64,000 nt of DNA from positions 124,001-188,000 of the IMG/VR virus record IMGVR_UViG_3300046787_000508, one strand, 5' to 3'. Every line of letters starts with the position of its first letter. Positions within the stretch are counted from its first letter, which is position 1. The notes under the pieces were generated by a model. It searched no databases. It saw only the letters and a program-made list of their open reading frames with translations, and had not been told where the DNA came from. Position numbers and translations under genes: made by a program. Origin of the DNA: a virus. Positions 3,804-47,956 of this stretch are shown here, in pieces.

Positions 3804-4829
3804 ATGAAAATAATAGTTTCAAAAGAAGACAAGAAGTACATCGAAGAGTCTATTAAGTCAGGTGAGGTTTTAGTCGAAGACCTTAGACGATGGTTTAAAG
3901 AAAAGTGGGTAGATGTATCTAAGAAAGTAGATGGTAAACATCCCCCTTGTGGTAGAAAGGATGCTGACGGTAAATCATATCCAAAATGTAGACCTTCAAA
4001 GAAAGTTTCAAAAGAAACACCAAAAGTTGCGTCATCGTATGATAAAGATGAAAAGAAATCAATGACGGCACAAAAAAGAAGAGCAGAAAAAAAGGACCCT
4101 AAAATAGGTAAAGGTAACAAACCAACGATGGTTCGTTTCGATGAACAAAAAGATATGAAAATAATTTGTGACGGTTGTGATTGGAGTTGGAACCTATCTG
4201 AAGGTGGTAATGACCCATACGTATGTCACAAGTGTGGAAAGGACAATTCAAAAAAATATAAAAAAATGAACGTAAAAGTAACTGAAAGTCAATACATTAG
4301 ACTTAATTTTAATAACCAATCTCCTAAATTAGTTAACGAAAATGTTATAATTTCTGATGCGTTAAAATACCAACTAACCACAAAGAAGACACTTGTTGAG
4401 AATATATATAAAATTGGTACCGAAGGGTATAATAAATTAATCGACGAATGTAGAGAACTTTACGAAAACGAGGATTTAGATTTATTTGGTGACGATATTG
4501 ATTTAATTTATGAAGATGAATTAGGTTTAGTGGAGGATTCAGATATTATTTTTGATGAAACATTGTATGAAGCGGAATATCAAGGACGTAATGTTCAATT
4601 GGGTAAAATTATGCAGGGGGACATCAAGAAATTTAAAGTATACGTAAAAAACGATAAAGGTAAAGTTGTTAAAGTGAATTTCGGTTTTGGTGGTAAGTCC
4701 GCTAAAGGTAAAAGAATGGTTATAAAAAAGAATAACCCTGAAAGACGTAAATCATTTAGAGCACGAATGAAGTGTGATACTCCAGGTCCACGTTGGAAAC
4801 CGAGATATTGGGCTTGTAAAACTTGGTAA
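3804..4829 (+). CDS. Two-part protein: DUF5872-like/zinc-ribbon region plus basic C-terminal domain
   Basis: 341 residues from the ATG at 3804. The N-terminus MKIIVSKEDKKYI resembles the leader shared by several small proteins here. Residues ~30-60 (LRRWFKEKWVDVSKKVDGKH, CGRKDADGKSYPKC) look like DUF5872. A zinc ribbon CDGCDW...CHKCGKDN lies at ~115-145. The final ~90 residues are basic (RRKSFRARMKCDTPGPRWKP). The ATG at 4266 inside the frame begins MNVKVTESQ, again the leader motif, so a second 187-residue product from internal initiation is possible. An earlier in-frame ATG at 3648 was rejected because it lies inside the previous gene. Confidence 0.65.
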   Translation: MKIIVSKEDKKYIEESIKSGEVLVEDLRRWFKEKWVDVSKKVDGKHPPCGRKDADGKSYPKCRPSKKVSKETPKVASSYDKDEKKSMTAQKRRAEKKDPKIGKGNKPTMVRFDEQKDMKIICDGCDWSWNLSEGGNDPYVCHKCGKDNSKKYKKMNVKVTESQYIRLNFNNQSPKLVNENVIISDALKYQLTTKKTLVENIYKIGTEGYNKLIDECRELYENEDLDLFGDDIDLIYEDELGLVEDSDIIFDETLYEAEYQGRNVQLGKIMQGDIKKFKVYVKNDKGKVVKVNFGFGGKSAKGKRMVIKKNNPERRKSFRARMKCDTPGPRWKPRYWACKTW

Positions 4830-5471
4830 ATGAAAGTATTAATAACCGAATCACAAAATAAAAGATTATTTGAGGGTAGATACATTAACATCCCTATGGA
4901 TAATGATGCCTCAGTTGAATTATGGGATAGTGGTGAAAGATTCGATTTAGAATCCATCGTAATACCAAAACAACTAAGAGGACAAGGTTATGGTACCGAA
5001 ATAATGAATAAAATTATTAAATTGGCGGATGATGAGTCAAAACCAATTTATTTAACTCCCGATACTTCATTCGGTGGTTCATCATTTAAAAGATTAGTAA
5101 GTTTCTATAAAAGGTTTGGGTTCGTTAAAAATGATGATAAATCCGTAACTAAACATTTTATGGTTAGATATCCACAGGTAAAGAAAAACACCAAGAAACA
5201 ATATATCGGTCAATGCGATACGTTACGAAGAGGTAATGAACAAAATGAAGAATATTGGCAACAAATGATGTCTAATAAACAAAAAATCGACTTTAATCAA
5301 TTTATCAATGGTGTTGATATGGATAGGTTGTTAGATGATGGAGAAACCACACAGGAATTCATCCAAGATTTAATTAATTCTGACCCATCCACTTCAGCGT
5401 ATGTTTCGAATTGGGGTAATAAAGAAACTTACTTTATCCAAACTGCCGGATTTGAATTTATCTTTGTTTAA
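4830..5471 (+). CDS. GNAT-family N-acetyltransferase with leader-like N-terminus
   Basis: 213 residues. The acetyl-CoA binding motif of GNAT enzymes is visible as IPKQLRGQGYGTEIMNKII (~50-70), followed by FYKRFGFV. The first 12 residues (MKVLITESQNKR) carry the [IL][TS]E.Q leader seen on other small proteins in the window. The C-terminal ~100 residues are unrecognised. The ATG follows the upstream TAA without a gap. The target is unknown. Confidence 0.7.
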   Translation: MKVLITESQNKRLFEGRYINIPMDNDASVELWDSGERFDLESIVIPKQLRGQGYGTEIMNKIIKLADDESKPIYLTPDTSFGGSSFKRLVSFYKRFGFVKNDDKSVTKHFMVRYPQVKKNTKKQYIGQCDTLRRGNEQNEEYWQQMMSNKQKIDFNQFINGVDMDRLLDDGETTQEFIQDLINSDPSTSAYVSNWGNKETYFIQTAGFEFIFV

Positions 5472-19828: not shown

Positions 19829-21850
19829 ATGGCAGTAGATTTCTTTGAAGAAGGACCAAAACAAAATCAAAAGAGTAGAAGACCTGGTTCAACAACACCT
19901 ATTTTAGATAATTTTTCACGAGATTTAATAAAGTTAGCTGAAGAAGGTAAGATTGACCCGGTTGTGGGAAGAGATAAAGAAGTGAAACGTATTTCTCAAA
20001 TCTTATCTCGAAAGAAAAAAAATAATGCGGTAATCGTTGGGGATGCGGGTGTTGGTAAATCGGCGTTAGTTGAGAAGTTAGCCATACAAATCCATAAAGG
20101 TAATTGTCCAAACAATCTATTAGATAAACGTTTAGTATCGTTGGACCTTACATCATTAGTTGCAGGAACAAAATACCGAGGACAGTTCGAAGAACGTATT
20201 AAAGCAATTTTAAACGAATTACAAGAGAATCCAAATGTAATTGTTTTTATCGATGAATTACATACCATGGTTGGTGCAGGTAATGCGAGTGGTGCAATGG
20301 ATGCCGCTAATATACTAAAACCCGCATTAGCACGTGGTGAAATGCAATGTATCGGTGCAACCACTTTCGATGAGTATAAAAAACATATTGAGAAGGATAG
20401 CGCGCTTGTACGAAGATTTCAAAAGGTTACCTTAAAAGAACCGACATATAGTGAGACAACAGAAATTTTAAATAACTTATCCCCATCATATGAAGATTAC
20501 CACAAAGTATCTTACGGTGAGGATGTTATTGACACTATCGTATTATTGTCAGATAGATACATCACAGATAGACAATTTCCAGACAAAGCCATTGACATCC
20601 TTGATGAATTAGGTTCAGAGAAAAGAGTTTCAACTAAAGTCCCTGAAATAATTGAAGAATTGAAAAAGGAAGTTGAAGTTATTAGAGAAAAGAAACTTCA
20701 AGTTGTTAAGAGTCAAAATTACGAATTGGCGGCCAAGTTACGTGACGACGAAAAGAAAGTTCAGAAGAAATTAGAAGAAGAAAAAGAAAATTGGGTTATC
20801 TCACAAAGAGATAATAAAACTCCCGTAATTGTTGAGGATGTATACAAAATTGTATCGGAGATGACAGGTGTCCCAATCACTAAATTAGACGTTAATGAAA
20901 CTGAAAAATTACTTGATTTAGAAAATATACTTGGTGAAAGAGTAATCGGTCAAGATGAAGCAGTTTCTATCATCTCAAAATCAATTAGAAGAAGTCGTGT
21001 TGGGATAAAAGATACAAATAGACCAATCGGTTCATTTATATTTTTGGGTTCAACAGGTGTGGGTAAAACTCACTTGGCAAAATCAATTGCGAGTACATTG
21101 TTTGGTTCTGAGGATAATGTTATACGTGTTGACATGAGTGAATTCATGGAAAAACACAGTGTTTCTCGTTTGATTGGTTCTCCTCCGGGATACGTTGGTT
21201 ACGATGAAGGTGGTCAATTAACAGAGAAAGTGAAAAACAATCCATTCTCAGTTATTTTATTTGATGAAATAGAGAAAGCACATAAGGATGTCTTTAACTT
21301 ATTATTACAAATCTTAGACGAAGGACATTTAACGGATTCATTCGGTAGAAAAGTAAATTTTACCAACACTTTGATTATTTTAACATCTAACATAGGTGCC
21401 AAGAAAGTAGTTGAATTTGGTGGTGGTGTTGGATTCAACACATTATCTAAGGAGAGTCAGTCTGAACAAGTTAAAAAGACTATTATAGATAAGTCATTAA
21501 AACAACAATTTAGTCCCGAATTTTTAAATCGTATAGACGATATCATCATCTTCAACCCATTGACCGATGATGTTTTAAATAAGATTATCACTATCGAACT
21601 TAATAAATTAGTTAAACGACTTGCAGAGAAAAAGTACGATATTGTTTTTGATAAAAGTGTGAACGATAAAATCCTTTCAATGAACAAAAATGAAGGATAC
21701 GGTGCACGACCTATTAAACGAATCATTCAAAATTTATGTGAAGATTTCTTGAGTGATGAGATTTTAAGAGGTAAAATAAAAGAAGGTAAATTAACAAATA
21801 TTAAGTGTAATAACGATGGTGTATTGTTAATTGGAAAAAAATTATTGTAA
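19829..21850 (+). CDS. ClpC-like AAA+ unfoldase lacking the N-terminal domain
   Basis: 673 residues, shorter than the ~810-850 of ClpC because the Clp N domain is absent. Walker A GDAGVGKS (71-78), Walker B VIVFIDELH (137-144), short coiled middle region (~275-325) like the ClpC M domain, second Walker A GSTGVGKT (407-414), sensor/arginine regions intact. A VGF tripeptide (534-536) stands where ClpC docks ClpP. It could deliver substrates to host ClpP. It has a host-type promoter, so it is probably expressed early. Confidence 0.88.
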   Translation: MAVDFFEEGPKQNQKSRRPGSTTPILDNFSRDLIKLAEEGKIDPVVGRDKEVKRISQILSRKKKNNAVIVGDAGVGKSALVEKLAIQIHKGNCPNNLLDKRLVSLDLTSLVAGTKYRGQFEERIKAILNELQENPNVIVFIDELHTMVGAGNASGAMDAANILKPALARGEMQCIGATTFDEYKKHIEKDSALVRRFQKVTLKEPTYSETTEILNNLSPSYEDYHKVSYGEDVIDTIVLLSDRYITDRQFPDKAIDILDELGSEKRVSTKVPEIIEELKKEVEVIREKKLQVVKSQNYELAAKLRDDEKKVQKKLEEEKENWVISQRDNKTPVIVEDVYKIVSEMTGVPITKLDVNETEKLLDLENILGERVIGQDEAVSIISKSIRRSRVGIKDTNRPIGSFIFLGSTGVGKTHLAKSIASTLFGSEDNVIRVDMSEFMEKHSVSRLIGSPPGYVGYDEGGQLTEKVKNNPFSVILFDEIEKAHKDVFNLLLQILDEGHLTDSFGRKVNFTNTLIILTSNIGAKKVVEFGGGVGFNTLSKESQSEQVKKTIIDKSLKQQFSPEFLNRIDDIIIFNPLTDDVLNKIITIELNKLVKRLAEKKYDIVFDKSVNDKILSMNKNEGYGARPIKRIIQNLCEDFLSDEILRGKIKEGKLTNIKCNNDGVLLIGKKLL

Positions 21851-32636: not shown

Positions 32637-32706
32637 GGGCCTGATGTCAACGGCAGACCACCTGATTTGCAATCAGAGTGTTTGGGTTCGATTCCCACAG
32701 TGTCCA
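32637..32706 (+). tRNA. tRNA-Ala (TGC)
   Basis: Anticodon arm CTGA-TTTGCAA-TCAG gives TGC; T arm with TTCGATT. The acceptor stem is weak (several mismatches). A frame-shifted reading would give Cys (GCA), but the Thr tRNA at 39824 has the same arm layout and supports TGC. Confidence 0.65.
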
Positions 32707-32712
32707 CAAATT

Positions 32713-32784
32713 GGAATATAGCTCAGTTGGTTAGAGCGTCATCCTGATACGGTGAATGTCGATGGTTCGAGTCCATCTATTCCA
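32713..32784 (+). tRNA. tRNA-Ile (GAT)
   Basis: Complete cloverleaf; anticodon loop CTGATAC; T loop TTCGAGT; CCA not encoded. Confidence 0.9.
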
Positions 32785-32792
32785 ACAACAAT

Positions 32793-32865
32793 GGTGATGT
32801 AGCTCAGATGGTAGAGCGCTACCCTGAAGAGGTAGGCGTCGGCGGTTCGAGTCCGTCCATCACCA
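32793..32865 (+). tRNA. tRNA-Phe (GAA)
   Basis: Complete cloverleaf; anticodon arm CTACC-CTGAAGA-GGTAG. Confidence 0.93.
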
Positions 32866-32869
32866 CAAT

Positions 32870-32943
32870 GACCTCGTAGCTCAGTTGGTTAGAGCACCTC
32901 ACTTTTAATGAGGGAGTCAATGGTTCGAGTCCATTCGGGGTCA
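32870..32943 (+). tRNA. tRNA-Lys (TTT)
   Basis: Complete cloverleaf; anticodon loop CTTTTAA; acceptor GACCTCG/CGGGGTC. Confidence 0.93.
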
Positions 32944-32949
32944 CAATAT

Positions 32950-33021
32950 GCTGCGGTAGTGAAGAGGTTAACACGTATCACTTTCTATGATAAGGCCGGG
33001 GTTCGATTCCCCGTCGCAGTA
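32950..33021 (+). tRNA. tRNA-Glu (TTC)
   Basis: Anticodon arm TATCA-CTTTCTA-TGATA; T arm CCGGGG-type stem with TTCGATT. A second Glu (TTC) gene is at 36351. Confidence 0.88.
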
Positions 33022-33027
33022 CAAAAT

Positions 33028-33096
33028 ACAAATTAGGCTAAGGTAGCCAAATGGTCTCCAAAACCATAGGAGAAAGTTCGATTCTTTCAATTTGTG
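33028..33096 (+). tRNA. tRNA-Trp (CCA)
   Basis: Acceptor ACAAATT/AATTTGT perfect; anticodon arm ATGGT-CTCCAAA-ACCAT. Confidence 0.9.
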
Positions 33097-33152
33097 CAAA
33101 ATATAAATTATGAAAAAGAAATTTGATATGCATTAGGTTAAATTCCTAATAT

Positions 33153-33374
33153 ATGAAACCGTTCAAAAACAAAGTAAGTCAAACGACAACTCACAACAAA
33201 GAGTATAAAATAGTAACAAACGATAAATTCGACCCATATTGGGATGAAGGATATAATTTTTATCCGAGATATCGTAGAGGGTATAAGAACCCAAATAAAT
33301 GTATAATGAGTTTTCAAATTAGAATGTATCGAACTTGGAAACATAATAGAAAAACACAATGGAGAATAATGTAG
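33153..33374 (+). CDS. Hypothetical basic protein between tRNA blocks
   Basis: 73 residues, rich in Tyr/Arg/Asn (FDPYWDEGYNFYPRYRRGYK). Overlaps the next gene by 16 bases. A preceding 9-codon frame (33110-33136, MKKKFDMH then TAG) is in another frame and may be a leader. Function unknown. Confidence 0.55.
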   Translation: MKPFKNKVSQTTTHNKEYKIVTNDKFDPYWDEGYNFYPRYRRGYKNPNKCIMSFQIRMYRTWKHNRKTQWRIM

Positions 33375-33781
33375 AGGGATTTAAGTTAAAGGCCGAAGCT
33401 CAACTTATCCAAATCAGAGAGGAAAGAAAAAAGAGGGTAAAGGAGTATTGGGAAAATCTCCCCAAGATTGTTACTCCAAACGATGTCCCTGAATTACCAA
33501 GAGTAGATATTCAGGAATGGAAAGATTTCTACGTCCCAAAATTAATTGAGGCGGGAGCAATTGGTAAGGACGATTTGATTGAAGGTCAAATTTACATTGG
33601 TGAACATAGAAGAGCGAATGTTGCTAAATGGAACGGAAATGAATTCATTTACAATAGAGAGAAATTTGGAAACGTTTATGAAGATAAATGTAACCACTTT
33701 GAAGATGATGATGGGTTCGCTTTATTTGTTCCAATTAGATTTGGTACTGAGGAAGAATATAAGCAAAATTGTTTACAATAA
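33359..33781 (+). CDS. Hypothetical protein between tRNA blocks
   Basis: 140 residues, acidic. IEGQIYIGEHRRANVAKWNG-type strand pattern in the middle and a highly charged helical N-terminus. No recognised motif. It probably overlaps and couples with the gene before it. Confidence 0.65.
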   Translation: MENNVEGFKLKAEAQLIQIREERKKRVKEYWENLPKIVTPNDVPELPRVDIQEWKDFYVPKLIEAGAIGKDDLIEGQIYIGEHRRANVAKWNGNEFIYNREKFGNVYEDKCNHFEDDDGFALFVPIRFGTEEEYKQNCLQ

Positions 33782-33790
33782 ACAATAAAG

Positions 33791-33862
33791 GGTCTCTTGG
33801 TGTAACGGATAACACGGAACACTACGAATGTTTTGTTAAAGGTTCGAATCCTTTAGAGACCT
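33791..33862 (+). tRNA. tRNA-Arg (ACG)
   Basis: Acceptor GGTCTCT/AGAGACC perfect; anticodon loop CTACGAA. Confidence 0.9.
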
Positions 33863-33869
33863 CAAATAA

Positions 33870-33941
33870 GTCAGGTTGACCGAGTTGGTAAGGTGAAGGT
33901 CTGCAAAACCTTTTACGTTGGTTCGAATCCAACACTTGACT
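33870..33941 (+). tRNA. tRNA-Cys (GCA)
   Basis: Anticodon arm AAGGT-CTGCAAA-ACCTT; acceptor GTCAGGT/ACTTGAC with one wobble. Confidence 0.92.
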
Positions 33942-33950
33942 CTAATATAT

Positions 33951-34024
33951 GGTGATTGTAGCTGAAATGGTAAAGCACCTGATTGTGGTTCAGGCGATTG
34001 TGGGTTCGATTCCCACCTTTCACA
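33951..34024 (+). tRNA. tRNA-His (GTG)
   Basis: Anticodon arm CCTGA-TTGTGGT-TCAGG; the extra 5' G expected for His is available. Confidence 0.85.
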
Positions 34025-34031
34025 CAAAAAT

Positions 34032-34112
34032 TGCGGGATGTCAGAAGATGGTATCTGGGGAGTCTCATAAGCTCTTGCGTAAGCCTCGTGGGTTCGAGTC
34101 CCACTCCCGCAA
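34032..34112 (+). tRNA. tRNA with CAT anticodon and long variable arm
   Basis: Acceptor TGCGGGA/TCCCGCA is perfect and the T arm normal. The anticodon loop CTCATAA gives CAT, but the variable region (TTGCGTAAGCC) is long with a CTT/AAG mini-stem, like class II tRNAs (Leu, Ser). The amino acid is therefore uncertain: Met, Ile (modified C) or an altered Leu/Ser tRNA. Confidence 0.7.
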
Positions 34113-34150
34113 CCATTTACAATGATATTTATATTCGGTAAATTATTACT

Positions 34151-34969
34151 ATGGAGTATAAATGTCAATATTGTAATGAAATGTTTGTTTTTGAAAAAAA
34201 ACAACAAGCGGGAGCTCACGTAACTAACTGTTCTATGAATCCCAAAAAAAAATTAATGACCGAGAAAAGGTTATTAAGTAAGGACCAAGTAAAAATAGAT
34301 AGAGTATTAAATTGTGAAAGATGTAATCAGGAATATACAATTAATATAACCAACCATCTATTCTCAATTGGTGATTATAAAAAACATTGTTCAAGAAAAT
34401 GTGCAAACAGTAGAACACAAAAAGAAGAAACAAAAAATAAAATATCGGAATCGGTTAAAATGTGGTTTGAAAAACCTGAAGTTAAAATAAAATTATTAAA
34501 AGATAAATCAAAATATAGAAGAAATAGAAAATGTCCATCTTGTAATGATGATTTTTTAACATTAAAATCGTCAAAACAAAAATATTGTTCATTGAAATGT
34601 GCAGGTTCCGCCGGAGGTAAAAACTCTAAACAGGGGAAAAGGAGTTTAAATGAAATTATGTTTTTTGAATTATGTAGTGAACATTTTGAAGGTGTAATGT
34701 CAAACGAAAACGCGTTTAATGGTTGGGACGCTGATGTTATTCTACCAAATGAAAAAATTGCAGTTTTATGGAATGGAATTTGGCACTATAAAAAAATAAT
34801 GAAAAAACATTCATTAACCCAAGTTCAAAATAGGGATATGATTAAAATAAAGGAAATAAAAAAATTAGGGTTTAAACCATATATAATAAAAGATATGGGT
34901 TCACATAATCCAGAGTTTGTGAATGAACAATTTATTATTTTTAAAAAATATTTAGAAAATATTTTGTAA
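34151..34969 (+). CDS. Zinc-finger homing-endonuclease-like protein (Vsr/EDxHD type)
   Basis: 272 residues. Three Cys-rich zinc-finger parts (CQYCNEMF...; CERCNQEY...HCSRKC; CPSCNDDF...YCSLKC, to ~157) precede a Vsr-like nuclease core: GKRSLNEIMFFELC, WDADVILPNEKIAVLWNGIW and HYKKI...QNRDMIKIKEIKKLGF. This family includes free-standing homing endonucleases. Its place inside the tRNA block suggests a selfish insertion. A TATTTATA box is just upstream. Confidence 0.75.
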   Translation: MEYKCQYCNEMFVFEKKQQAGAHVTNCSMNPKKKLMTEKRLLSKDQVKIDRVLNCERCNQEYTINITNHLFSIGDYKKHCSRKCANSRTQKEETKNKISESVKMWFEKPEVKIKLLKDKSKYRRNRKCPSCNDDFLTLKSSKQKYCSLKCAGSAGGKNSKQGKRSLNEIMFFELCSEHFEGVMSNENAFNGWDADVILPNEKIAVLWNGIWHYKKIMKKHSLTQVQNRDMIKIKEIKKLGFKPYIIKDMGSHNPEFVNEQFIIFKKYLENIL

Positions 34970-34993
34970 ATTAAAAAATAAATATTACATTTG
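34964..34993 (+). promoter_or_regulatory. Bacteroidota-type promoter for the initiator tRNA block
   Basis: TTG at 34964, 19-nt spacer, TACATTTG at 34986-34993, 31 bases before the initiator tRNA. Confidence 0.75.
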
Positions 34994-35024
34994 TACAAGA
35001 ATTAAATGTTCATTGAAAATATAT

Positions 35025-35096
35025 CGCAGGGTAGAGCAGTGGTAGCTCGGGAGGCTCATAACCTCTAGGTCGTCAGTTCGAATCTGGCCCCTGCAA
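35025..35096 (+). tRNA. Initiator tRNA-fMet (CAT)
   Basis: The 5' C cannot pair with the 3' A (C1-A72 mismatch), the hallmark of bacterial initiator tRNA; the body closely follows the initiator pattern (AGAGCAGTGGTAGCTCG, CTCATAA loop, CCCCTGCAA end). The anticodon stem GGAGG/CCTCT has two rather than three consecutive G-C pairs at the loop. Confidence 0.88.
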
Positions 35097-35098
35097 CA

Positions 35099-35144
35099 AA
35101 ACATAAGATTAATTACCTTATGTATGGAAGGTTCGAAACTTCCG
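35099..35144 (+). ncRNA. Two hairpins, the second with a T-loop-like sequence
   Basis: ACATAAG/CTTATGT (7 bp perfect) followed by GGAAG-GTTCGAAA-CTTCC, which imitates a tRNA T arm without a tRNA around it. Confidence 0.45.
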
Positions 35145-35145
35145 A

Positions 35146-35259
35146 TTGATTATGGTGTAAAGGTGCACGGCAGAACGGAGTAGGAATACGAAAAGCATTG
35201 AGCTTTCGTCGGTTCCGAAAGGGGAAACAGGATTATGGTTCGAATCCATTTTAGTCAAC
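35146..35259 (+). ncRNA. Oversized tRNA-like RNA (Gln-like)
   Basis: About 114 nt. Acceptor TTGATTA/TAGTCAA, Gln-type D region (ATGGTGTAAAGGT) and T arm ATGG-TTCGAAT-CCAT are intact, but the middle ~65 nt does not form a standard anticodon arm; it holds a long hairpin around CGAAAAGCATTGAGCTTTCG whose loop contains TTG. Either an interrupted or degenerate tRNA-Gln or a tRNA mimic. Confidence 0.55.
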
Positions 35260-35261
35260 TA

Positions 35262-35387
35262 TTGTAATTGACATAACGTCCTTAGCGGGAGAGCTTAGTA
35301 TATTACGGATAATCCTTCGGTAATTTACGATATGGTAACGTAGAAACAAGAGTAAGAGGATTTGAGTTCTACCTATGTTAGTTACAA
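35262..35387 (+). ncRNA. Structured spacer RNA closed by a 14-bp stem
   Basis: TTGTAATTGACATA (35262-35275) pairs with TATGTTAGTTACAA (35374-35387) with only two G-U pairs. Inside are further hairpins (GTAGAAAC / GTTCTAC). It fills exactly the space between the tRNA-like RNA and tRNA-Asp and has no convincing reading frame. Confidence 0.5.
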
Positions 35388-35392
35388 TTTTT

Positions 35393-35465
35393 GGGATTGA
35401 GGTCAAACGGTTAAGATGTCGCCCTGTCACGGCGCACGGAGCGGGTTCAACTCCCGTCAGTCCCG
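35393..35465 (+). tRNA. tRNA-Asp (GTC)
   Basis: Anticodon arm with loop CTGTCAC; acceptor GGGATTG/CAGTCCC. Confidence 0.9.
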
Positions 35466-35673
35466 CAAATGAGTAAGAGATACTCAATGATTTGGCATCG
35501 TTCGAAATAATGATGTAGTTGTTTCCTTCCACGATTTTATAGAGGGGGTCTCGGAATATGGTCGTAACAAAACTACCGAGTATGTTTGACGTTTTAAGCG
35601 GTAAGACGCGATGGGTTTTTCAATACGAAAAACTGTGAATATCTACCTCGAAATAATCTCATCGGGGACAATT
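35466..35673 (+). ncRNA. Structured spacer between tRNA-Asp and tRNA-Ser
   Basis: Hairpin CATCGTT/AATGATG near the start, then TTGTTTCC (35519) pairing with GGGGACAA (35664), enclosing CTCGG/CCGAG and GTTTTTC/GAAAAAC hairpins. The closing stem ends 2 nt before tRNA-Ser. No gene is visible. Confidence 0.45.
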
Positions 35674-35759
35674 GGAAGGATGGCAGAGTTGGTCGATTGT
35701 ACCTGACTTGAAATCAGGCGTACTGCAAGGTACCGTGGGTTCGAATCCTACTCCTTCCG
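35674..35759 (+). tRNA. tRNA-Ser (TGA)
   Basis: Class II tRNA; anticodon arm CCTGA-CTTGAAA-TCAGG and long variable arm GTAC..GTAC. Confidence 0.92.
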
Positions 35760-36033
35760 CAATTCGACGACATTTAGGGTGATTTAGTATCTAGATTACT
35801 CTTTGTAACGATTACGGAAGTACACATTTATTTGTGTTAAACGTTAAGTTCGACAGGTAGAAACTAAGTGGTTCGGAATTTGACTGAAACAAGGTGACTT
35901 GGTCTTTGAAGTATTCAAACGATTTATCGTTGTAGGTACTGAATAACAAGAAGATAAACTAAGAACATCATCGTATGAAGTTTACCTAGAGAAATTTATA
36001 AAACGATGACTGCTCGGAAAGACGGGCTCATTT
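35760..36033 (+). ncRNA. Structured spacer without a gene
   Basis: 274 nt with several inverted repeats: ACACA/TGTGT, AACGAT/ATCGTT, and CATCGT (35969) with ACGATG (36003). No reading frame of note. Similar in size and style to the other inter-tRNA spacers. Confidence 0.4.
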
Positions 36034-36145
36034 AATTAGGTGGCGGAATTGGTAAACGTAGAGATGTTGAAGTTTAGGTATCACTATGATTAAGTTCAGA
36101 AACTTGACCTAATGCTCTAAACAGGTTCGAATCCTGTCCTGATTA
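36034..36145 (+). ncRNA. Oversized tRNA-like RNA (Leu-like)
   Basis: 112 nt. Acceptor AATTAGG/CCTGATT, Leu-type D region (TGGCGGAATTGGTAAACG) and T arm ACAGG-TTCGAAT-CCTGT are intact. The middle holds TAGAG/CTCTA and AAGTT-CAGA-AACTT pairings instead of a normal anticodon and variable arm, so about 25 nt are extra. Confidence 0.55.
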
Positions 36146-36350
36146 CAGGTCGTCTTTTTATATTGCTCCCGTTTGTGAGTTAACTTTATAGACGTAAAAC
36201 TTAAAGTAATGAAAATCATTCCCTTCTGGAGTTGACGGTAAAACTATCCAGTCCTGTTCCTTACCGAAGGAGTTTCCGGACGTTAATATGAAACTCAAAC
36301 GACAGTGAAAAGTAGGGACTTATAAGTTTTACCTGAACTTGTCCCGAATT
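36146..36350 (+). ncRNA. Structured spacer before tRNA-Glu
   Basis: GTAAAACTTA (36194) pairs perfectly with TAAGTTTTAC (36323); internal GGTAA/TTACC and CGTTT../..AGACG stems. No gene is visible. Confidence 0.45.
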
Positions 36351-36422
36351 GGCCCGTTCGACTATCGGTTAGGTCGTCAGGTTTTCATCCTGGAAAGAGG
36401 GGTTCGACTCCCCTACGGGCTA
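36351..36422 (+). tRNA. tRNA-Glu (TTC), second copy
   Basis: Anticodon arm CAGG-TTTTCAT-CCTG; acceptor GGCCCGT/ACGGGCT. Confidence 0.9.
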
Positions 36423-36436
36423 CTAAATTTAATGAA

Positions 36437-36628
36437 ATGAAAAAGTTAATTTTATTATTGGTTGTGATGTTTAGTATGAGTGGTTGTTATACCACATATA
36501 GAACGCCACAAAGACACAATGGACTTAGACCTTTATGGTATAATCCAAGAACTCATCAAGGACCGTTTTATAATCATCCAAGACCAAGAAACATGAGACC
36601 ACATTTCAATCCAAGAAATCGTTGGTAA
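36437..36628 (+). CDS. Small lipoprotein rich in Pro/Arg/His
   Basis: 63 residues: lipoprotein signal MKKLILLLVVMFSMSGC and a mature part of Pro, Arg, Asn, His and aromatics (YNHPRPRNMRPHFNPRNRW). Function unknown. Confidence 0.6.
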   Translation: MKKLILLLVVMFSMSGCYTTYRTPQRHNGLRPLWYNPRTHQGPFYNHPRPRNMRPHFNPRNRW

Positions 36629-36656
36629 CATTTGACTTTTTAATATTTTATTAGTA

Positions 36657-36663
36657 TATTTAT
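36657..36663 (+). promoter_or_regulatory. TATTTAT box before the Pth2-like gene
   Basis: TATTTATATTATT leads into the ATG at 36670, which supports that ATG as the true start and so places the TAG at codon 5 inside the gene. Confidence 0.5.
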
Positions 36664-36669
36664 ATTATT

Positions 36670-36999
36670 ATGAAACAACATTAGACACATAGACTTATAA
36701 CCGTAACGAGAAAAGATATTTCTCCGGGTTATCAAATTGCACAATCGGGGCATGCAATTGCACAATTCTTTTTAGACCATCCCGATTTATCTAAAAAATG
36801 GAACAACAACTATCTTATTTCGTTGTCCATAGATTCCGAACAAAAATTACATAAACTTTTTACCGACTTAATTGAGTGTGGAATATCCGTATCCGTGTTT
36901 AACGAACCAGATATTGATAATCAACTAACGTCACTGTGCTTCCTCGAAACGGGAGATACAAAAAAATACACACATAAACTTAAATTATCTTTAAATTAA
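36670..36999 (+). CDS. Pth2-like peptidyl-tRNA hydrolase with in-frame TAG at codon 5
   Basis: Reading from ATG 36670 to TAA 36997-36999 gives 109 codons if the TAG at 36682-36684 is decoded. The product matches the Pth2 fold: RKDISPGYQIAQSGHAIAQF is the nucleotide/tRNA binding start of that family, followed by LISLSIDSEQKLHKLFTDL and GISVSVFNEPD. Pth2 frees tRNA from aborted peptidyl-tRNA. No ATG, GTG or TTG offers a start after the TAG before the core. A CTA-anticodon tRNA lies at 37576, so amber decoding is plausible; a mutation or assembly error is the alternative. Confidence 0.7.
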
Positions 37000-37108
37000 G
37001 AAACCATGAAATAGATACGACCACCGAACTAAACTTAATAAAGTAAAAAATGCTCGATAAAGGCATCAACTTTATCATTAAACAATAACTTTATTAAATT
37101 TAAACAAA

Positions 37109-37447
37109 ATGAAAAAATACACAAATAACCCAACACAAATGATTAAATGTACATTCTCTAACTCAGTTCATAAAATATTAGAACCTAATATCGATATTAA
37201 AAATCGTGAAAGATGGAGAAAAGAAAATCGTGACAAATACAATTTCACTGATGAACAAAAAATAGAAATGTTCGATAAGATAATGAAAATACATAAAGAA
37301 ACATCTAATGAATTAACATCTTATCAATTTGATAGGAGAGACAAAAAAAGGTTACACGCTGACCGTGTCGCTCGAGGTTATAAATTTAAAACAAAAACCA
37401 AAAAGGAAGAATATGAAAAAAATATTCAGAAAGATTTGGTATTATAA
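37109..37447 (+). CDS. Hypothetical basic helical protein
   Basis: 112 residues, strongly basic and helical (NRERWRKENRDKYNFTDEQK). No motif recognised. It lies between the Pth2-like gene and the suppressor tRNA and could bind RNA, on charge alone. Confidence 0.6.
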   Translation: MKKYTNNPTQMIKCTFSNSVHKILEPNIDIKNRERWRKENRDKYNFTDEQKIEMFDKIMKIHKETSNELTSYQFDRRDKKRLHADRVARGYKFKTKTKKEEYEKNIQKDLVL

Positions 37448-37466
37448 AAAATAAACAATACATTTG
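37436..37466 (+). promoter_or_regulatory. Bacteroidota-type promoter for the suppressor tRNA
   Basis: TTG at 37436, 20-nt spacer, TACATTTG at 37459-37466. Confidence 0.7.
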
Positions 37467-37470
37467 TATT

Positions 37471-37573
37471 ATAATTTACAACCAAAGAGACATTGACTTA
37501 GTAACCCAGTGGAGGCACACATAAACTGTATTAGTGAAAAGTTGAGGTGATAGACCACCATGTTGTAAATTAT
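37471..37573 (+). ncRNA. Structured leader closed by a perfect 12-bp stem
   Basis: ATAATTTACAAC (37471-37482) pairs perfectly with GTTGTAAATTAT (37562-37573). It begins at about the expected transcription start of the promoter and ends 2 nt before the suppressor tRNA. Confidence 0.55.
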
Positions 37574-37575
37574 TT

Positions 37576-37647
37576 GTCCTGTTAGTGTAGTGGTAGCACG
37601 AAGGTCTCTAAAACCTTTAAGGGTCGGTTCGAGTCCGACACGGGGCA
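37576..37647 (+). tRNA. Amber-suppressor tRNA (CTA)
   Basis: Acceptor GTCCTGT/ACGGGGC, D arm AGTGTAGTGGTAGCAC, anticodon arm AAGGT-CTCTAAA-ACCTT giving CTA, T arm GTCGG-TTCGAGT-CCGAC. It reads UAG. The arm GGT-CTCTAAA-ACC differs by one base from the Trp pattern (CTCCAAA), so descent from tRNA-Trp is possible; Gln is the other candidate. The amino acid cannot be fixed here. Confidence 0.9.
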
Positions 37648-37672
37648 CAAAAATAAAAAAAATAAAAAATAT

Positions 37673-37703
37673 TTGTTTACTATTGATATTTTTTGTAAAT
37701 TTG
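37673..37703 (+). promoter_or_regulatory. Bacteroidota-type promoter for the mini-gene at 37721
   Basis: TTG at 37673, 20-nt spacer, TAAATTTG at 37696-37703. Confidence 0.7.
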
Positions 37704-37720
37704 CATATACTTATTAAACG

Positions 37721-37828
37721 ATGAAGAATATAAATAACATATTGACGAGTACGAGACCCCTTAACAATGGTAATGGGTATGGTGTGCAACCGTTAAGTTA
37801 CTTATGTTCGGATATTATTGAGATGTAA
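37721..37828 (+). CDS. Mini-gene of 35 residues
   Basis: 35 residues (MKNINNILTSTRPLNNGNGY and then GVQPLSYLCSDIIEM) with its own promoter and a strong terminator at 37848. The arrangement repeats that at 32418-32632. It could be a small effector or a leader peptide; no family is recognised. Confidence 0.45.
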   Translation: MKNINNILTSTRPLNNGNGYGVQPLSYLCSDIIEM

Positions 37829-37847
37829 ATAAATTTTACAATTATAA

Positions 37848-37886
37848 ATCAACCCGAACAAATTAAAAAAATGTTCGGGTTTTTTG
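37848..37886 (+). terminator. Terminator after the mini-gene
   Basis: AACCCGAACA / TGTTCGGGTT hairpin followed by TTTTTTG. Confidence 0.85.
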
Positions 37887-37914
37887 TTTTAATTAAATTT
37901 TATTATTACATTTG
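37884..37914 (+). promoter_or_regulatory. Bacteroidota-type promoter for the Leu-Asn tRNA block
   Basis: TTG at 37884, 20-nt spacer, TACATTTG at 37907-37914. Confidence 0.7.
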
Positions 37915-37947
37915 TAACGTAGTTCATTGACATTCTGAGAAAGTAAC

Positions 37948-38032
37948 GCCCGGGTGGTGTAATGGTAGCCACGAGGGACTTAAAATCCCTTGGACAGAAA
38001 CGTTCGTGCCGGTTCGAGTCCGGCCCCGGGTA
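37948..38032 (+). tRNA. tRNA-Leu (TAA)
   Basis: Class II; anticodon arm GGGA-CTTAAAA-TCCC; acceptor GCCCGGG/CCCGGGT. Confidence 0.9.
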
Positions 38033-38080
38033 CGAAGCTTAGTTCACACTATACTCGCGAAGAGGAGGAAGTGTATTTTT

Positions 38081-38154
38081 GGTTCCATAGCTCAATTGGA
38101 TAGAGCAACACACTTCTAATGTGTAGGTTTCAGGTTCGACTCCTGATGGAATCA
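38081..38154 (+). tRNA. tRNA-Arg (TCT)
   Basis: Anticodon arm ACACA-CTTCTAA-TGTGT; acceptor GGTTCCA/TGGAATC. Confidence 0.93.
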
Positions 38155-38212
38155 CACCGGTGGTAGTTTTGAGGTTGACGAATTCTACATAAAAAAAATA
38201 ATTCATCCACTA

Positions 38213-38285
38213 CTAGGTGTGGGAAAGTTGGTAATCCGCGTGGTTTGGGACCACGAGACCGTAGGTTCGAGCCCTACCACTTAGA
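38213..38285 (+). tRNA. tRNA-Pro (TGG)
   Basis: Anticodon arm CGTGG-TTTGGGA-CCACG; acceptor CTAGGTG/CACTTAG. A hairpin (GGTGGTAGT...ACTAC) precedes it directly. Confidence 0.9.
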
Positions 38286-38362
38286 CGAGATGGTGATAAC
38301 CAATCAGCAGCCAAAATGTATACAGAAATGCTGGAGGTGACAAACGGGGAGAGACCCGTACA

Positions 38363-38444
38363 TACCCGAGTGGTGGAATGGTATACACAGCGGTCTTAGA
38401 AACCGTGTCGAAAGGCGTGTCGGTTCGAGTCCGACCTTGGGTAC
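38363..38444 (+). tRNA. tRNA-Leu (TAG)
   Basis: Class II; anticodon arm GCGGT-CTTAGAA-ACCGT; acceptor TACCCGA/TTGGGTA. Confidence 0.9.
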
Positions 38445-38451
38445 GAAAATT

Positions 38452-38523
38452 GGCCTTGTAGCTCAGTGGTAGAGCAGTTGACTGTTAATCAACTGGTCGT
38501 TGGTTCGAATCCAACCGGGGCCT
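38452..38523 (+). tRNA. tRNA-Asn (GTT)
   Basis: Anticodon arm GTTGA-CTGTTAA-TCAAC; acceptor GGCCTTG/CGGGGCC. An interrupted second Asn gene is at 43314. Confidence 0.93.
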
Positions 38524-38589
38524 CAAAAAGTTTAACCATATAAGGTTGAATAAGATGACAGACGAAAGTTATCTCTTGAGGGTAAAATG

Positions 38590-38655
38590 AAAAGATTGGT
38601 AGAGTGGTACTACGGGGTGACGGCCCAAACGCAGGTTCGATTCCTGTATCGAAGT
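38590..38655 (+). ncRNA. Partial tRNA-like fragment
   Basis: A D-arm-like GTAG-AGTGGTA-CTAC and a good T arm GCAGG-TTCGATT-CCTGT flank a poor anticodon arm. The following TATCGAAGT finds its complement ACTTTGATA only downstream, just before tRNA-Tyr. A degenerate tRNA is the simplest reading. Confidence 0.35.
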
Positions 38656-38717
38656 AATTTGAGAGTAAAGGTAAAAGGTATTAATAGCGGTCTAAAAACT
38701 GGGTTAAACTTTGATAT

Positions 38718-38799
38718 GGGAGCATCGCATAGCGGCAATTGCAGAAGACTGTAAATCTTCCCTCTTTCGAGTTCGTAGGTTCGAGTCCTACTGCTCCCA
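38718..38799 (+). tRNA. tRNA-Tyr (GTA)
   Basis: Class II-type long variable arm; anticodon arm GAAGA-CTGTAAA-TCTTC; acceptor GGGAGCA/TGCTCCC. Confidence 0.93.
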
Positions 38800-38813
38800 C
38801 AAAAAAACAAATT

Positions 38814-39467
38814 ATGGCAACATTAGAAACACAGTACAAGGATTTTTTGGTTAAAAACCCAAGTTCAACGTTTACATTTGAAGAATGGAAAAACGACCAC
38901 GGGGTTAAGATTGCAAATGCAGTTGAACGTTCTTCCTCACTTAAGAAAATTATTGATGAGATTAGAACACCCGAATACAAGGAAAGGAGATTAAAAGAAA
39001 AAAAAGAAAGTAAAGAAAGATTAACCGCCGAGTATCAGTTTGGATATTATGTTGGTGAAGAAATTGTGACAAGGCATTTACCAACGATTACAACAGATAT
39101 GATAAAGTCTCGTAATCAAATTAAAGTTTCGGATGAAGACACTGAAGAAAACAAACGTATACATGACCTATGGTGGGAGAGTGGAAAATATGGTTCCAAT
39201 CCTGACGATGTGGTTAATAAAGAAACTTGGAAATTATATCGACAACATATGGTTATGTTGGAAAAGAAGTATCTCCCAAATCCTTTAAAATGTAATATTG
39301 ATTTATTAAATATTCGTGACGAGAAAGATTTTAAAGATGGGTTAATCCATTCGTTGTGGAATTGTGATATGTGTACTTACAGTTTAAAACCTGAAGACAT
39401 TAAGATATACGATGATGAAGATATGTGGTTTACCATCATTGAATTTATCCTAAGAGACGAAGAATAA
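38814..39467 (+). CDS. Hypothetical protein between tRNA genes
   Basis: 217 residues, highly charged and helical, from the ATG at 38814 (an earlier ATG lies inside tRNA-Tyr). DLWWESGKYGSNPDD and LIHSLWNCDMCTYSLKPEDI are notable aromatic/Cys stretches, but no family is recognised. It starts 15 bases after the tRNA and ends 7 before the next one. Confidence 0.7.
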   Translation: MATLETQYKDFLVKNPSSTFTFEEWKNDHGVKIANAVERSSSLKKIIDEIRTPEYKERRLKEKKESKERLTAEYQFGYYVGEEIVTRHLPTITTDMIKSRNQIKVSDEDTEENKRIHDLWWESGKYGSNPDDVVNKETWKLYRQHMVMLEKKYLPNPLKCNIDLLNIRDEKDFKDGLIHSLWNCDMCTYSLKPEDIKIYDDEDMWFTIIEFILRDEE

Positions 39468-39473
39468 TAGTTT

Positions 39474-39547
39474 GGACTTGTAGCTCAGTTGGTTAGAGCA
39501 CCGCACTCATAATGCGTAGGTCCCTGGTTCGAGCCCAGGCTGGTCCA
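39474..39547 (+). tRNA. tRNA-Met or tRNA-Ile2 (CAT)
   Basis: Standard class I tRNA; anticodon arm CGCA-CTCATAA-TGCG. Elongator Met or lysidine-type Ile cannot be separated by eye. Confidence 0.85.
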
Positions 39548-39554
39548 CAAAATT

Positions 39555-39631
39555 TGGAAAGTTAGCTCAGTTGGTTCAGAGCACCTCGTTTACACCGAGG
39601 GGGTCGTAGGTTCGAATCCTACACTTTCTAC
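39555..39631 (+). tRNA. tRNA-Val (TAC)
   Basis: Anticodon arm CTCG-TTTACAC-CGAG; acceptor TGGAAAG/CTTTCTA. Confidence 0.9.
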
Positions 39632-39632
39632 A

Positions 39633-39818
39633 ATGTATCAAATGTGCAGTGAAAGTTGATGTAGGCATACATCGGTGAGGTGGGTTCGAATCCCAAGTAA
39701 CAATACCCAATTTGGTGGGGGCCGAGTAACTGATAACACATTATAGCCGATTTTGGGTTGTGCACCTCGTCCGAGAAACCCTAATAGTTCCTAATAGACC
39801 GGTATGGAACTGATACAT
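39633..39818 (+). ncRNA. Structured spacer closed by a perfect 8-bp stem
   Basis: ATGTATCA (39633-39640) pairs with TGATACAT (39811-39818). It begins 2 nt after tRNA-Val and ends 5 nt before tRNA-Thr and contains GATGT/ACATC and a T-arm-like TGGG-TTCGAAT-CCCA hairpin. No gene is visible. Confidence 0.5.
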
Positions 39819-39823
39819 AATTT

Positions 39824-39896
39824 GCCTCCATAGCTCAGTTGGTAGAGCAGCTGATTTGTAATCAGCAGGTCGTTGGTTCGAGCCCGACTGGAGGCT
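39824..39896 (+). tRNA. tRNA-Thr (TGT)
   Basis: Anticodon arm CTGA-TTTGTAA-TCAG; acceptor GCCTCCA/TGGAGGC. Confidence 0.93.
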
Positions 39897-39900
39897 CATA

Positions 39901-39974
39901 AGCAGATGTCGTATAATGGTCATTACTTCAGACTTCCAATCTGAAGATGAGAGTTCGATTCTCTCCATCTGCTC
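39901..39974 (+). tRNA. tRNA-Gly (TCC)
   Basis: Anticodon arm TCAGA-CTTCCAA-TCTGA; acceptor AGCAGAT/ATCTGCT. Confidence 0.92.
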
Positions 39975-40069
39975 TGTCGGTACCCAAAGGGTGAAGGACG
40001 TGGTATGGGACTTGTTCCCTCAAACTCAATACCGTAAGTTGAGCGGCCAATCTACGGGATTGGCTTTAC
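39975..40069 (+). ncRNA. Structured spacer between tRNA-Gly and tRNA-Gln
   Basis: 95 nt with hairpins GGTACCC/GGGT, GGTAT/ATACC and GCCAATC-tacgg-GATTGGC. No reading frame. Confidence 0.4.
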
Positions 40070-40141
40070 TGTTCCATGGTGTAACGGTTAACACTACCGG
40101 TTTTGAGCCGGTCATTTCAGGTTCGAATCCTGATGGGACAA
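40070..40141 (+). tRNA. tRNA-Gln (TTG)
   Basis: Anticodon arm ACCGG-TTTTGAG-CCGGT; acceptor TGTTCCA/TGGGACA. Confidence 0.92.
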
Positions 40142-40145
40142 CAAA

Positions 40146-40231
40146 GGAAGGTTACCCAAGTTGGTGAAGGGGCCTGTTTGCTAAACAGGTAGGGTGTAAC
40201 AGCCGCGAGAGTTCGAGCCTCTCACTTTCCG
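40146..40231 (+). tRNA. tRNA-Ser (GCT)
   Basis: Class II; anticodon arm CCTGT-TTGCTAA-ACAGG; acceptor GGAAGGT/ACTTTCC. Confidence 0.92.
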
Positions 40232-40233
40232 CA

Positions 40234-42628: not shown

Positions 42629-42654
42629 TACCACCCATTATTAAAATATATTGT

Positions 42655-43393
42655 GGCTATGTGTTATGTTACTTCTAAACTTTTAATTGGCTAAAAACAT
42701 ACATACACTCTTTCCACTTTTTAAAAATTATTGCGGCTATGTGAGATTCCAAAAGGATAACCATTAACCACATTTACTTGAGACGGGATGTTTCCGTAAT
42801 GTGGTCTTAGATTAGGTGAAAGTACGGGAACAAAGGTCTTACTTCTAACATACAAATTAAGATAACACGTTAGACACACTTTTTCCGCAAAACTTATAAA
42901 CGGCTATACATATTCTTACTTCTATCCAAACTTTTACTTTGACAATAGATTTGTGATTTCCGTTTTTTATTACGTTCTTTGAAAAAATATTTGGCTATAG
43001 ATTGTGTTACTTCTATATGGTTAATCTTGGTTCGAATCCAAGTCATACCTGTAACAGGGTAAGATTTTTACACAACTAATCTCCAAATAAATTATATTTT
43101 AATGGCTATGTGGGCGTGAATTGGTATAATATTTACATATCAACCACGGACTGGTTACTTCTACATCATCTGCGGGGAACTCAGCTTCGCCGCAACCATA
43201 ACAATTAACCAGCACAGTTTCCATTAAAAACTTATATCGGCTATGAATCGAGTTACTTCTAAAAACTATCAATAATGAAAACTCACTCATCCAATTTCCG
43301 ATTAATTTAAAATGAGGGTGGTAGCTCAGTTGGTAGAGCACGTATTCACTGGTTTAATTACCGTTTATATGGCTATATTCACAGTTACTTCTA
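42655..43393 (+). repeat. Array of seven GGCTAT-N8-TTACTTCTA repeats
   Basis: GGCTAT occurs at 42655, 42735, 42902, 42993, 43104, 43239 and 43371, each followed by TTACTTCTA (42669, 42839, 42916, 43007, 43155, 43253, 43385). In five copies exactly 8 variable bases separate the two parts; in copies 2 and 5 the gap is 98 and 45 nt. Most copies are preceded by TTTCC or ACCG and an A/T-rich stretch. No protein-coding frame. The last copy lies inside a tRNA-Asn gene. Confidence 0.8.
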
Positions 43394-43441
43394 TTAGGCT
43401 GTTAACCTCGTGGTCGTGAGTTCGAATCTCACCCACCCTCC
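43314..43441 (+). tRNA. tRNA-Asn (GTT) interrupted by a 53-nt insertion
   Basis: Joining 43314-43342 to 43396-43441 gives a perfect tRNA: acceptor GAGGGTG/CACCCTC, D arm GCTCAGTTGGTAGAGC, anticodon arm CGAGG-CTGTTAA-CCTCG, T arm GTGAG-TTCGAAT-CTCAC. The insertion 43343-43395 splits the 5' side of the anticodon stem, starts and ends with TATT and contains one GGCTAT-N8-TTACTTCTA repeat. It is too short for a group I or II intron. Confidence 0.85.
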
Positions 43442-47003: not shown

Positions 47004-47021
47004 ATTATTTTATGATATAAT

Positions 47022-47052
47022 TTGTTTTATAAATTAATTTATATTACATTTG
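47022..47052 (+). promoter_or_regulatory. Bacteroidota-type promoter for tmRNA
   Basis: TTG at 47022, 20-nt spacer, TACATTTG at 47045-47052; expected start of transcription is a few bases before the tmRNA 5' end at 47073. Confidence 0.8.
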
Positions 47053-47072
47053 TATCAGTTCTTTAAAATAAT

Positions 47073-47479
47073 GGGGATGCTTTGGAATTGATTTCAAGTA
47101 TCGGGGATAAATGGCATGTAGTCAGACTTCATCTATGACTTAAATCTATGGTGGAAAACTTTTAGACGGCAACGTTTACAACAACATGGAGACTGCAGGT
47201 ATTCTTGCAACTTCAAACGTAGCAGTAGCCTAAGGCCAAACTACATCGGGTCGAATAACACATAACCTAGGAACAGAAGTTATCAAGGTGTAATACCACC
47301 AAAAGATGTATTAGGAGTCTCGTTCAGGGTGCTACTCCAACACAAGTGAATCCGACACAGTTATTGGTAACGATGTTAAAATAGGAACCAATTATTTGTC
47401 AGTTGAGAATTAACTGAATAAACATGTAGTCATTTATTGTTGAGCGGGAAAGACCGGAGTTCGAGTCTCCGCATCTCCA
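47073..47479 (+). ncRNA. ssrA: Transfer-messenger RNA (tmRNA)
   Basis: 407 nt. The ends form the tRNA-like domain: GGGGATG...CATCTCC with the Ala identity pair G3-U70, a D-loop-like start (CTTTGGAATTGATTTC) and a T arm GACCGGAGTTCGAGTCTCC. A tag frame runs 47168-47233 (resume codon GGC inferred): GNVYNNMETAGILATSNVAVA then TAA. The tag is 21 residues and ends VAVA, not the common ALAA. Predicted pseudoknot-rich region follows. It rescues stalled ribosomes with SmpB. Own promoter and terminator; CCA not fully encoded. Confidence 0.9.
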
Positions 47480-47484
47480 CTTAT

Positions 47485-47507
47485 AAAGGGTCTTAGGACC
47501 CTTTTTT
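47485..47507 (+). terminator. Terminator after tmRNA
   Basis: AAAGGGTC-tta-GGACCCTTT hairpin followed by a T tract. Confidence 0.8.
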
Positions 47508-47518
47508 AATTTATTAAA

Positions 47519-47956
47519 ATGAAAAATATCATAGATAACCGTAAATCGTATTTTAACTATTCCATTGAGGACAAGTACACGGCAGGTGTTCAATTAATTG
47601 GGACAGAAATAAAATCTATTCGTGAAGGTAAATTAAACTTTAACGATTCATTTTGTTTGTTTATTAATGGTGAACTATTTGTCCGTGGAATTTATATTTC
47701 CGACTATTCTTTTGGTGTTAAACATGAGAATGTACGAGATAGGAAGTTACTATTGTCTAAAAAAGAATTAAATAAGATACAAGAATCGGTAAAAGAGAAA
47801 GGATATACTATAGTACCCCTAAAAGGATACTTTACAGACACGAACTATTTTAAAATAGAAATCGGTATTGGTAAAGGTAAAAAGTCCTACGATAAGAGGG
47901 AAACCATTAAAAAAAGGGACACTGAAAGAGAAATCAGGAGATTGGTAACTACCTAA
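47519..47956 (+). CDS. smpB: SmpB, tmRNA-binding protein
   Basis: 145 residues, the normal length. SmpB hallmarks: YTAGVQLIGTEIKSIREGK (~20-38), NDSFCLFINGELFVRGIYIS, RKLLLSKKEL, KGYTIVPLKGYFTDTNYFKI, and the basic C-terminal KSYDKRETIKKRDTEREIRR that reaches into the empty mRNA channel. It binds the tRNA-like end of tmRNA. It lies 40 bases after the tmRNA. Confidence 0.94.
   Translation: MKNIIDNRKSYFNYSIEDKYTAGVQLIGTEIKSIREGKLNFNDSFCLFINGELFVRGIYISDYSFGVKHENVRDRKLLLSKKELNKIQESVKEKGYTIVPLKGYFTDTNYFKIEIGIGKGKKSYDKRETIKKRDTEREIRRLVTT

Follow-up and report, generated by a model that had tools for sequence, protein, structure and literature searches.

A phage tmRNA-smpB unit with a long, hairpin-bearing tag as a candidate degron for phage Clp proteins

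Introduction

Why a large phage should carry its own equipment for the rescue of stalled ribosomes, and what becomes of the proteins marked in the process, are questions raised by a locus in the IMG/VR virus record IMGVR_UViG_3300046787_000508, in which ssrA, the gene for a transfer-messenger RNA (tmRNA), is followed by smpB, encoding the SsrA-binding protein. The window analyzed here is a stretch of 64,000 nucleotides, positions 124001-188000 of this 202,894-base record (G000). We lean, if only slightly, towards a phage-encoded trans-translation unit whose tag is a phage-specific degron for a ClpC-like unfoldase and a ClpP protease encoded by the same phage. The record contains genes for a T4-type capsid protein gp23, a portal protein gp20 and the terminase, which bears out the phage origin taken for granted in an earlier, sequence-only reading of the locus. 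The source of the DNA is a large lake-type phage; its host is probably a member of Bacteroidota, a placement to phylum level only, suggested by the promoter type and the tmRNA features.

A complete tmRNA gene followed by smpB

The tmRNA, which was not called by ARAGORN run on the window, was found with the Rfam covariance model RF00023. The match, at 47073-47482, scores 81.3 bits (E 6e-30; gathering score 47) and covers model positions 1-374, that is, the full length of the model. The pair 3-70 is of the alanine type, G-U; among 48 distinct relatives it is G-U in 46 and G-C in two, and compensatory changes that preserve pairing are found in the acceptor stem, the T arm and pseudoknot 1. In the latter, P4 is paired in 44-47 and P3 in 43-47 of the relatives, with compensatory types such as A-U/G-C. 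CCA is absent from the gene, whose 3' end continues with ACTT. Some of the exceptions to T-arm pairing are due to group I introns (RF00028, 62-79 bits) that split the T loop of the tmRNA in the relatives L028, L045, L084, L091 and L119; T-loop introns are known from bacterial tmRNA genes, including those of the class Bacteroidia (PMC11915505).

The gene is preceded by a promoter of the Bacteroidota type and followed by an intrinsic terminator (Table 1). The -7 element is present upstream of 45 of 50 related tmRNAs versus 11% in shuffled sequences, and the full -33/-7 pattern upstream of 20 of the 50 versus 0.5%.

The product of smpB scores 178.6 bits with PF01668 and 179.8 bits with the NCBIfam equivalog NF003843 (cut-off 130), and matches the SmpB of PDB entry 7ljp with E 2e-42. 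The DKR/KRE C-terminal region is present and the protein ends in KSYDKRETIKKRDTEREIRRLVTT. The gene is optional among the relatives, being found in three of the eight records with a tmRNA that are 200 kb or longer, and wherever it could be placed in tmRNA-bearing records it lies at most about 10 kb from the tmRNA. The main statements of the sequence-only reading on this part of the locus, namely a complete tmRNA with a G3-U70 pair, a host-type promoter and terminator of its own, and smpB as the next gene, thus hold, the covariance model having confirmed the fold.

Table 1. Elements of the tmRNA-smpB unit and phage Clp genes (window positions unless the record is named)
Feature	Position	Strand	Description	Basis
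Promoter, Bacteroidota type	47021..47052	+	-33 TTTG (47021-47024), 20-base spacer, -7 TACATTTG (47045-47052)	sequence
ssrA	47073..47479	+	one-piece tmRNA; G3-U70 acceptor stem, T arm, no encoded CCA	RF00023
Pseudoknot 1	47120..47155	+	P3 AGUCA/UGACU and P4 UUCAUC/GGUGGA, upstream of the resume codon	covariation
Tag reading frame	47168..47233	+	GGC...GCC TAA, encoding GNVYNNMETAGILATSNVAVA and stop	frame, ARAGORN on relative L026, codon entropy
Extra hairpin within the tag frame	47189..47214	+	core UGCAGG-UAUU-CUUGCA	stability vs synonymous resampling
Second hairpin, canonical helix-5 position	47219..47244	+	GUAG..GCC(UAA)GGC..CUAC, tag stop in the loop	minimum-energy fold
Intrinsic terminator of ssrA	47485..47507 (approx.)	+	GGGTC-TTAG-GACCC, then TTTTTT	read from sequence
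smpB	47519..47956	+	145-aa SsrA-binding protein, 3' of ssrA	PF01668, NF003843, PDB SmpB 7ljp
ClpC-like unfoldase	19829..21850	+	double-ring AAA+ protein, 673 aa, no N-terminal domain	PF07724, PF00004, PF17871, PF10431
ClpP	28695-29219 of record G000		same record as the tmRNA	PF00574; triad by alignment to solved ClpP

The tag and its phage family

Read from the resume codon GGC at 47168 to the TAA stop codon, the tag comprises 21 residues and ends in VAVA, as had been proposed. The resume codon and the frame are supported by ARAGORN, which independently gives the tag GNVYNNMEVAGILATSNVAVA for the close relative L026, and the start is further supported by the context TTTTTAAAC directly before the GGC, common to the phage tmRNA and a Bacteroidota-type tmRNA (L251). 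The mean entropy at codon positions 1, 2 and 3 of the tag frame is 0.29, 0.14 and 0.61, the pattern expected for a coding frame; compared with the first two positions, the third is two to four times as variable, and pN is 0.23 versus a pS of 0.49. A chance or misframed tag was considered and rejected on the basis of the whole-length Rfam match, the ARAGORN call in the relative and the codon-position entropy.

Relatives were collected from IMG/VR contigs, their records being mostly fragments. A degenerate tag pattern gave 69 tmRNAs, loci first reached through smpB included, after one viral match without a tmRNA (L063) had been dropped. Since a set defined by the tag is biased at the fixed codons, a second, tag-independent pattern was scanned, yielding 21 further tmRNAs with a readable tag, the tags still being read with a loose tag expression; six matches without tmRNAs (L103, L107, L108, L115, L118 and L122) were discarded. 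The two patterns together give about 90 phage contigs with this tag, and sampling centered on the unfoldase added seven further, distant tmRNAs. No match to the tmRNA of the window and its tag was found among the 50,697 deposited phage records of INPHARED, and in 84,980 bacterial and archaeal genomes of GTDB the tag pattern gave only four spurious matches (L094-L097), none of them in a tmRNA. Host contamination was likewise rejected, in view of the phage structural genes in the record and the absence of the tag from GTDB genomes.

The framework of the tag, G-N-V-Y-x-x-M-E-x-x-G-[LI]-[LIV] with an end V-x-A or V-A-A, is conserved, and its length is 20-22 residues; in the current tmRNA database, tags of 10 residues are the commonest (PMC11915505). 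The very end varies among the relatives: VAVA, VEVA, KVAA/VAA, VVA, VSA, VTA and VLA all occur, as does AVS in L223. The sequence-only reading had singled out VAVA in place of the common ALAA, which does not stand as a fixed trait, relatives ending in KVAA, VEVA, VVA, VSA or VTA. The features that distinguish the phage tag are instead its length, its framework and a hairpin within the reading frame. That the tag is unlike that of the host type was borne out, the Bacteroidota-type tmRNA encoding GENNYALAA and the phage pattern occurring as a true tag in none of the GTDB genomes; the comparison on the host side is with one Bacteroidota-type tmRNA, itself from an IMG/VR record.

A hairpin inside the tag frame

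The extra hairpin spans codons 8-17, and its stability exceeds that of synonymously resampled versions of the same peptide for 36 of the 37 unique tags (mean z -1.65). Its central wobble-wobble pair shows compensatory replacement of A-U by U-A, U-G and G-U, and the stem has been rebuilt by lineage, as in TTGCG/CGCAA, GUUG/CAAC and GAAUUAA/UUGAUUC. The second hairpin of the window, and that of many relatives, has the stop codon in or near its loop. On our reading, the phage tag owes its greater length to the additional hairpin, which is placed between the resume codon and helix 5. The RNA and the peptide of the tag both appear to be constrained.

Phage Clp proteins and their linkage to the tmRNA

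Both Walker pairs are present in the two AAA+ modules of the unfoldase, as are pore loops and a middle domain, and the protein aligns to ClpC of Staphylococcus aureus from ClpC residue 155 onward (E 2.5e-220). A putative ClpP-docking loop of the IGF type, VGF at residues 534-536, is aligned near the corresponding loop of ClpC. No adaptor-binding Clp N-domain is among the listed Pfam matches of the protein, which is called ClpC-like rather than ClpC because it lacks that domain. The catalytic triad of the phage ClpP (Ser128, His153 and Asp202) is intact.

The unfoldase is encoded in 24 of 27 tmRNA-bearing records. In the 28th record of that set, L014, no tmRNA was found within its 65 kb; on this distant phage contig clpP lies directly upstream of smpB (4331-5429). 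Among the tmRNA-bearing records, the eight that reach 200 kb or more all encode the unfoldase, and seven of them ClpP. When records, mostly fragments, were sampled by the unfoldase regardless of tmRNA, a tmRNA scoring above the cut-off turned up in seven of 24, each time downstream of the unfoldase on the same strand. The same order and strand are seen in the larger records at a distance of about 9-26 kb, two of the distances having been counted across contig ends, and indeed in every record in which both genes were placed. It is also worth mentioning that in distant relatives the gene of the ClpC-like unfoldase has genes for DnaK (L243) or small heat-shock proteins (L245 and L248), recognized by motifs only, as its neighbors.

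What the tag may be for

A role of the phage tmRNA and SmpB in freeing stalled ribosomes is well supported by the membership of both in their families. On the preferred reading, the tmRNA would be transcribed from its own Bacteroidota-type promoter, and host enzymes would process the transcript, add CCA and charge it with alanine. Phage SmpB, or probably host SmpB in the relatives without smpB, would then load it on ribosomes stalled at broken mRNA, as would arise if infection entailed the destruction of transcripts. The ribosome would resume at the GGC, pass the extra hairpin and add the tag as a phage-specific degron, and the tagged fragments would be delivered to the phage Clp machine, unfolded by the ClpC-like ATPase and cut by phage ClpP. 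Without an N domain the unfoldase offers no place to adaptors that bind to that domain, and unstructured degrons are expected to enter its pore directly. ClpX deprived of its N domain takes ssrA tags in this direct manner. The phage tag is the natural candidate degron for the phage unfoldase. The unit would presumably be active during infection, its benefit being that ribosomes and amino acids are kept available and proteolysis stays under phage control. A more demanding version, in which the tag of this jumbo phage lineage is an orthogonal degron read specifically by its own N-domain-less unfoldase and ClpP, independently of host ssrA/ClpXP and with tag and unfoldase co-evolving, is put forward tentatively, as possible rather than probable.

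Several points weigh against a degron dedicated to the phage Clp proteins. The clpP gene is far from the tmRNA, and smpB is missing from five of the eight records of at least 200 kb. Linkage and co-occurrence reflect shared descent within one phage group and not independent events. Selection on the in-frame hairpin at the RNA level may explain part of the conservation of the peptide, and the link between the tag and a Clp machine, be it that of the phage or of the host, is drawn from sequence. A tag ending in VAA or VA could well be degraded by host ClpXP. Such degradation is assumed in the alternative that phage tmRNA and SmpB merely top up rescue, host ClpXP degrading the tagged proteins while the phage Clp proteins serve other ends, such as the turnover of host regulators or general protein quality control. 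The KVAA ends of many relatives do resemble the AVAA/LAA ends known from bacterial tags, host factors are probably used at least where the optional smpB is missing, and the Hsp20-/DnaK-like genes near the unfoldase in distant relatives suggest general protein quality control. We nevertheless regard this alternative as rather unlikely, for it accounts neither for the departure of the tag from the host form GENNYALAA and its later adherence to a framework of its own, nor for the constant order in which the ATPase gene precedes the tmRNA.

The results of synonymous resampling and the rebuilding of the stem with different bases in different lineages would also fit a hairpin that is itself the selected feature, serving for example ribosome pacing, RNA stability or the binding of a phage factor, with the long peptide mostly a passenger. 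This we hold to be improbable, given the excess variation at third codon positions and the conservation of V3, Y4, M7 and V18 outside the stem; moreover, constraints on RNA and peptide can coexist. Scarcely credible is an escape of tagged proteins from degradation by virtue of VAVA: this end differs from ALAA, and the AVS of L223 departs further still, but the end is variable, many relatives have VAA, and GFP(LVA), whose engineered ssrA tag has a V-A end, is still degraded in E. coli. The earlier suggestion that tagged proteins might avoid or redirect the usual degradation is thus divided, redirection gaining weight from the phage ClpP and ClpC-like unfoldase, and avoidance through VAVA losing it with the variation between V-A and A-A ends among close relatives. 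If the preferred reading, a phage degron for phage Clp proteins, is true, the virus comes with every stage of protein quality control, from marking through unfolding to cutting, and the mark is its own. This would offer an explanation, open to test, for the presence of tmRNA and SmpB in large phages, and a candidate orthogonal pair of degron and protease for Bacteroidota. A tmRNA family with a hairpin in the tag would also be useful for asking how much structure in the tmRNA message ribosomes tolerate.

Neighboring RNA features

Upstream of the tmRNA, positions 42629-43440 of the window form a noncoding region of 0.8 kb in which a motif made up of GGCTAT, a spacer of usually 8 bases and TTACTTCT occurs seven times; the compact form of this motif occurs five times versus 0.01 expected by chance. 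Arrays of two to six copies are present in many tmRNA-bearing relatives, e.g., L032, L040, L043, L060, L064, L065 and L091, and the region is possibly an undescribed large ornate RNA. In L008, L009, L010, L061, L084, L059, L079 and L110 the tmRNA has the GOLLD RNA (RF02032, 290-338 bits) on its upstream side; GOLLD was sought and not found in the record of the window, nor was it found in the array-bearing relatives L028, L065 and L091, and GOLLD and the array may replace each other. A tRNA-like gene in the window (43315-43440; Rfam 45 bits), as well as those in L065 (7658-7780) and L091 (4347-4469), is enlarged in the anticodon arm by about 50 bases, which include one copy of the GGCTAT...TTACTTCT motif. 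Positions 32637-40232 of the window are taken up by a block of about 27 tRNA genes, and one of them, with the anticodon CTA (37576-37648), could read UAG. General recoding of UAG was not seen in the window, where TAG ends four of the 57 main open reading frames and readthrough is short.

Comparison with known systems

The closest counterpart is the Bacteroidota-type one-piece tmRNA (RF00023), which has the same G3-U70 acceptor stem, T arm, pseudoknot 1 and promoter type, as well as a stop codon in a hairpin loop. Besides the resume context, its representative L251 has the block GAATAAACGTGTAG in common with the phage tmRNA. The Bacteroidota-type tag has 9-10 residues and ends in YALAA, unlike the phage tag, and its tmRNA lacks the extra in-frame hairpin. 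The phage unfoldase resembles ClpC of Firmicutes and Actinobacteria in its two AAA+ rings, UvrB/C-like middle segment, D2-small domain and ClpP-docking loop, and differs from it in lacking the N-terminal adaptor-binding domain.

The sequence-only reading called the combination of tmRNA and SmpB rare in phages. This is correct overall, since tmRNA is found in 2.3% of phage genomes (PMC9004378) and SmpB-like matches in 67 of the 50,697 INPHARED records, but the combination had already been reported from huge phages in 2020 (Al-Shayeb et al., PMC7162821), in a paper whose main text does not mention Clp and whose tmRNA passages give no tag sequence. Complete tmRNAs are also encoded by mycobacteriophages such as Bxz1, by phage G and by the methylophage Melnitz, all with different hosts (PMC4131195, PMC9004378); that of Melnitz is a permuted two-piece molecule with a riboswitch, whereas the tmRNA of the window is in one piece. 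Lak phages and the 636-kb phage LR756504 combine tmRNA, SmpB, ClpP and a Clp-type ATPase, as seen here. Their tags, DDEIDFRMAA or DDEIEFRMAA in the Lak phages (L209 and L210) and DNVNSFEQSILNELFAPVEMAVAA in LR756504 (L208), are in our reading unrelated to that of the window. The open-access literature searched yielded no account of the tag family, of the in-frame hairpin or of a pairing of tmRNA with phage Clp proteins. The unit of the window is thus a further instance of tmRNA and SmpB as already known from huge phages, in which the tag family and its hairpin would be the new variation.
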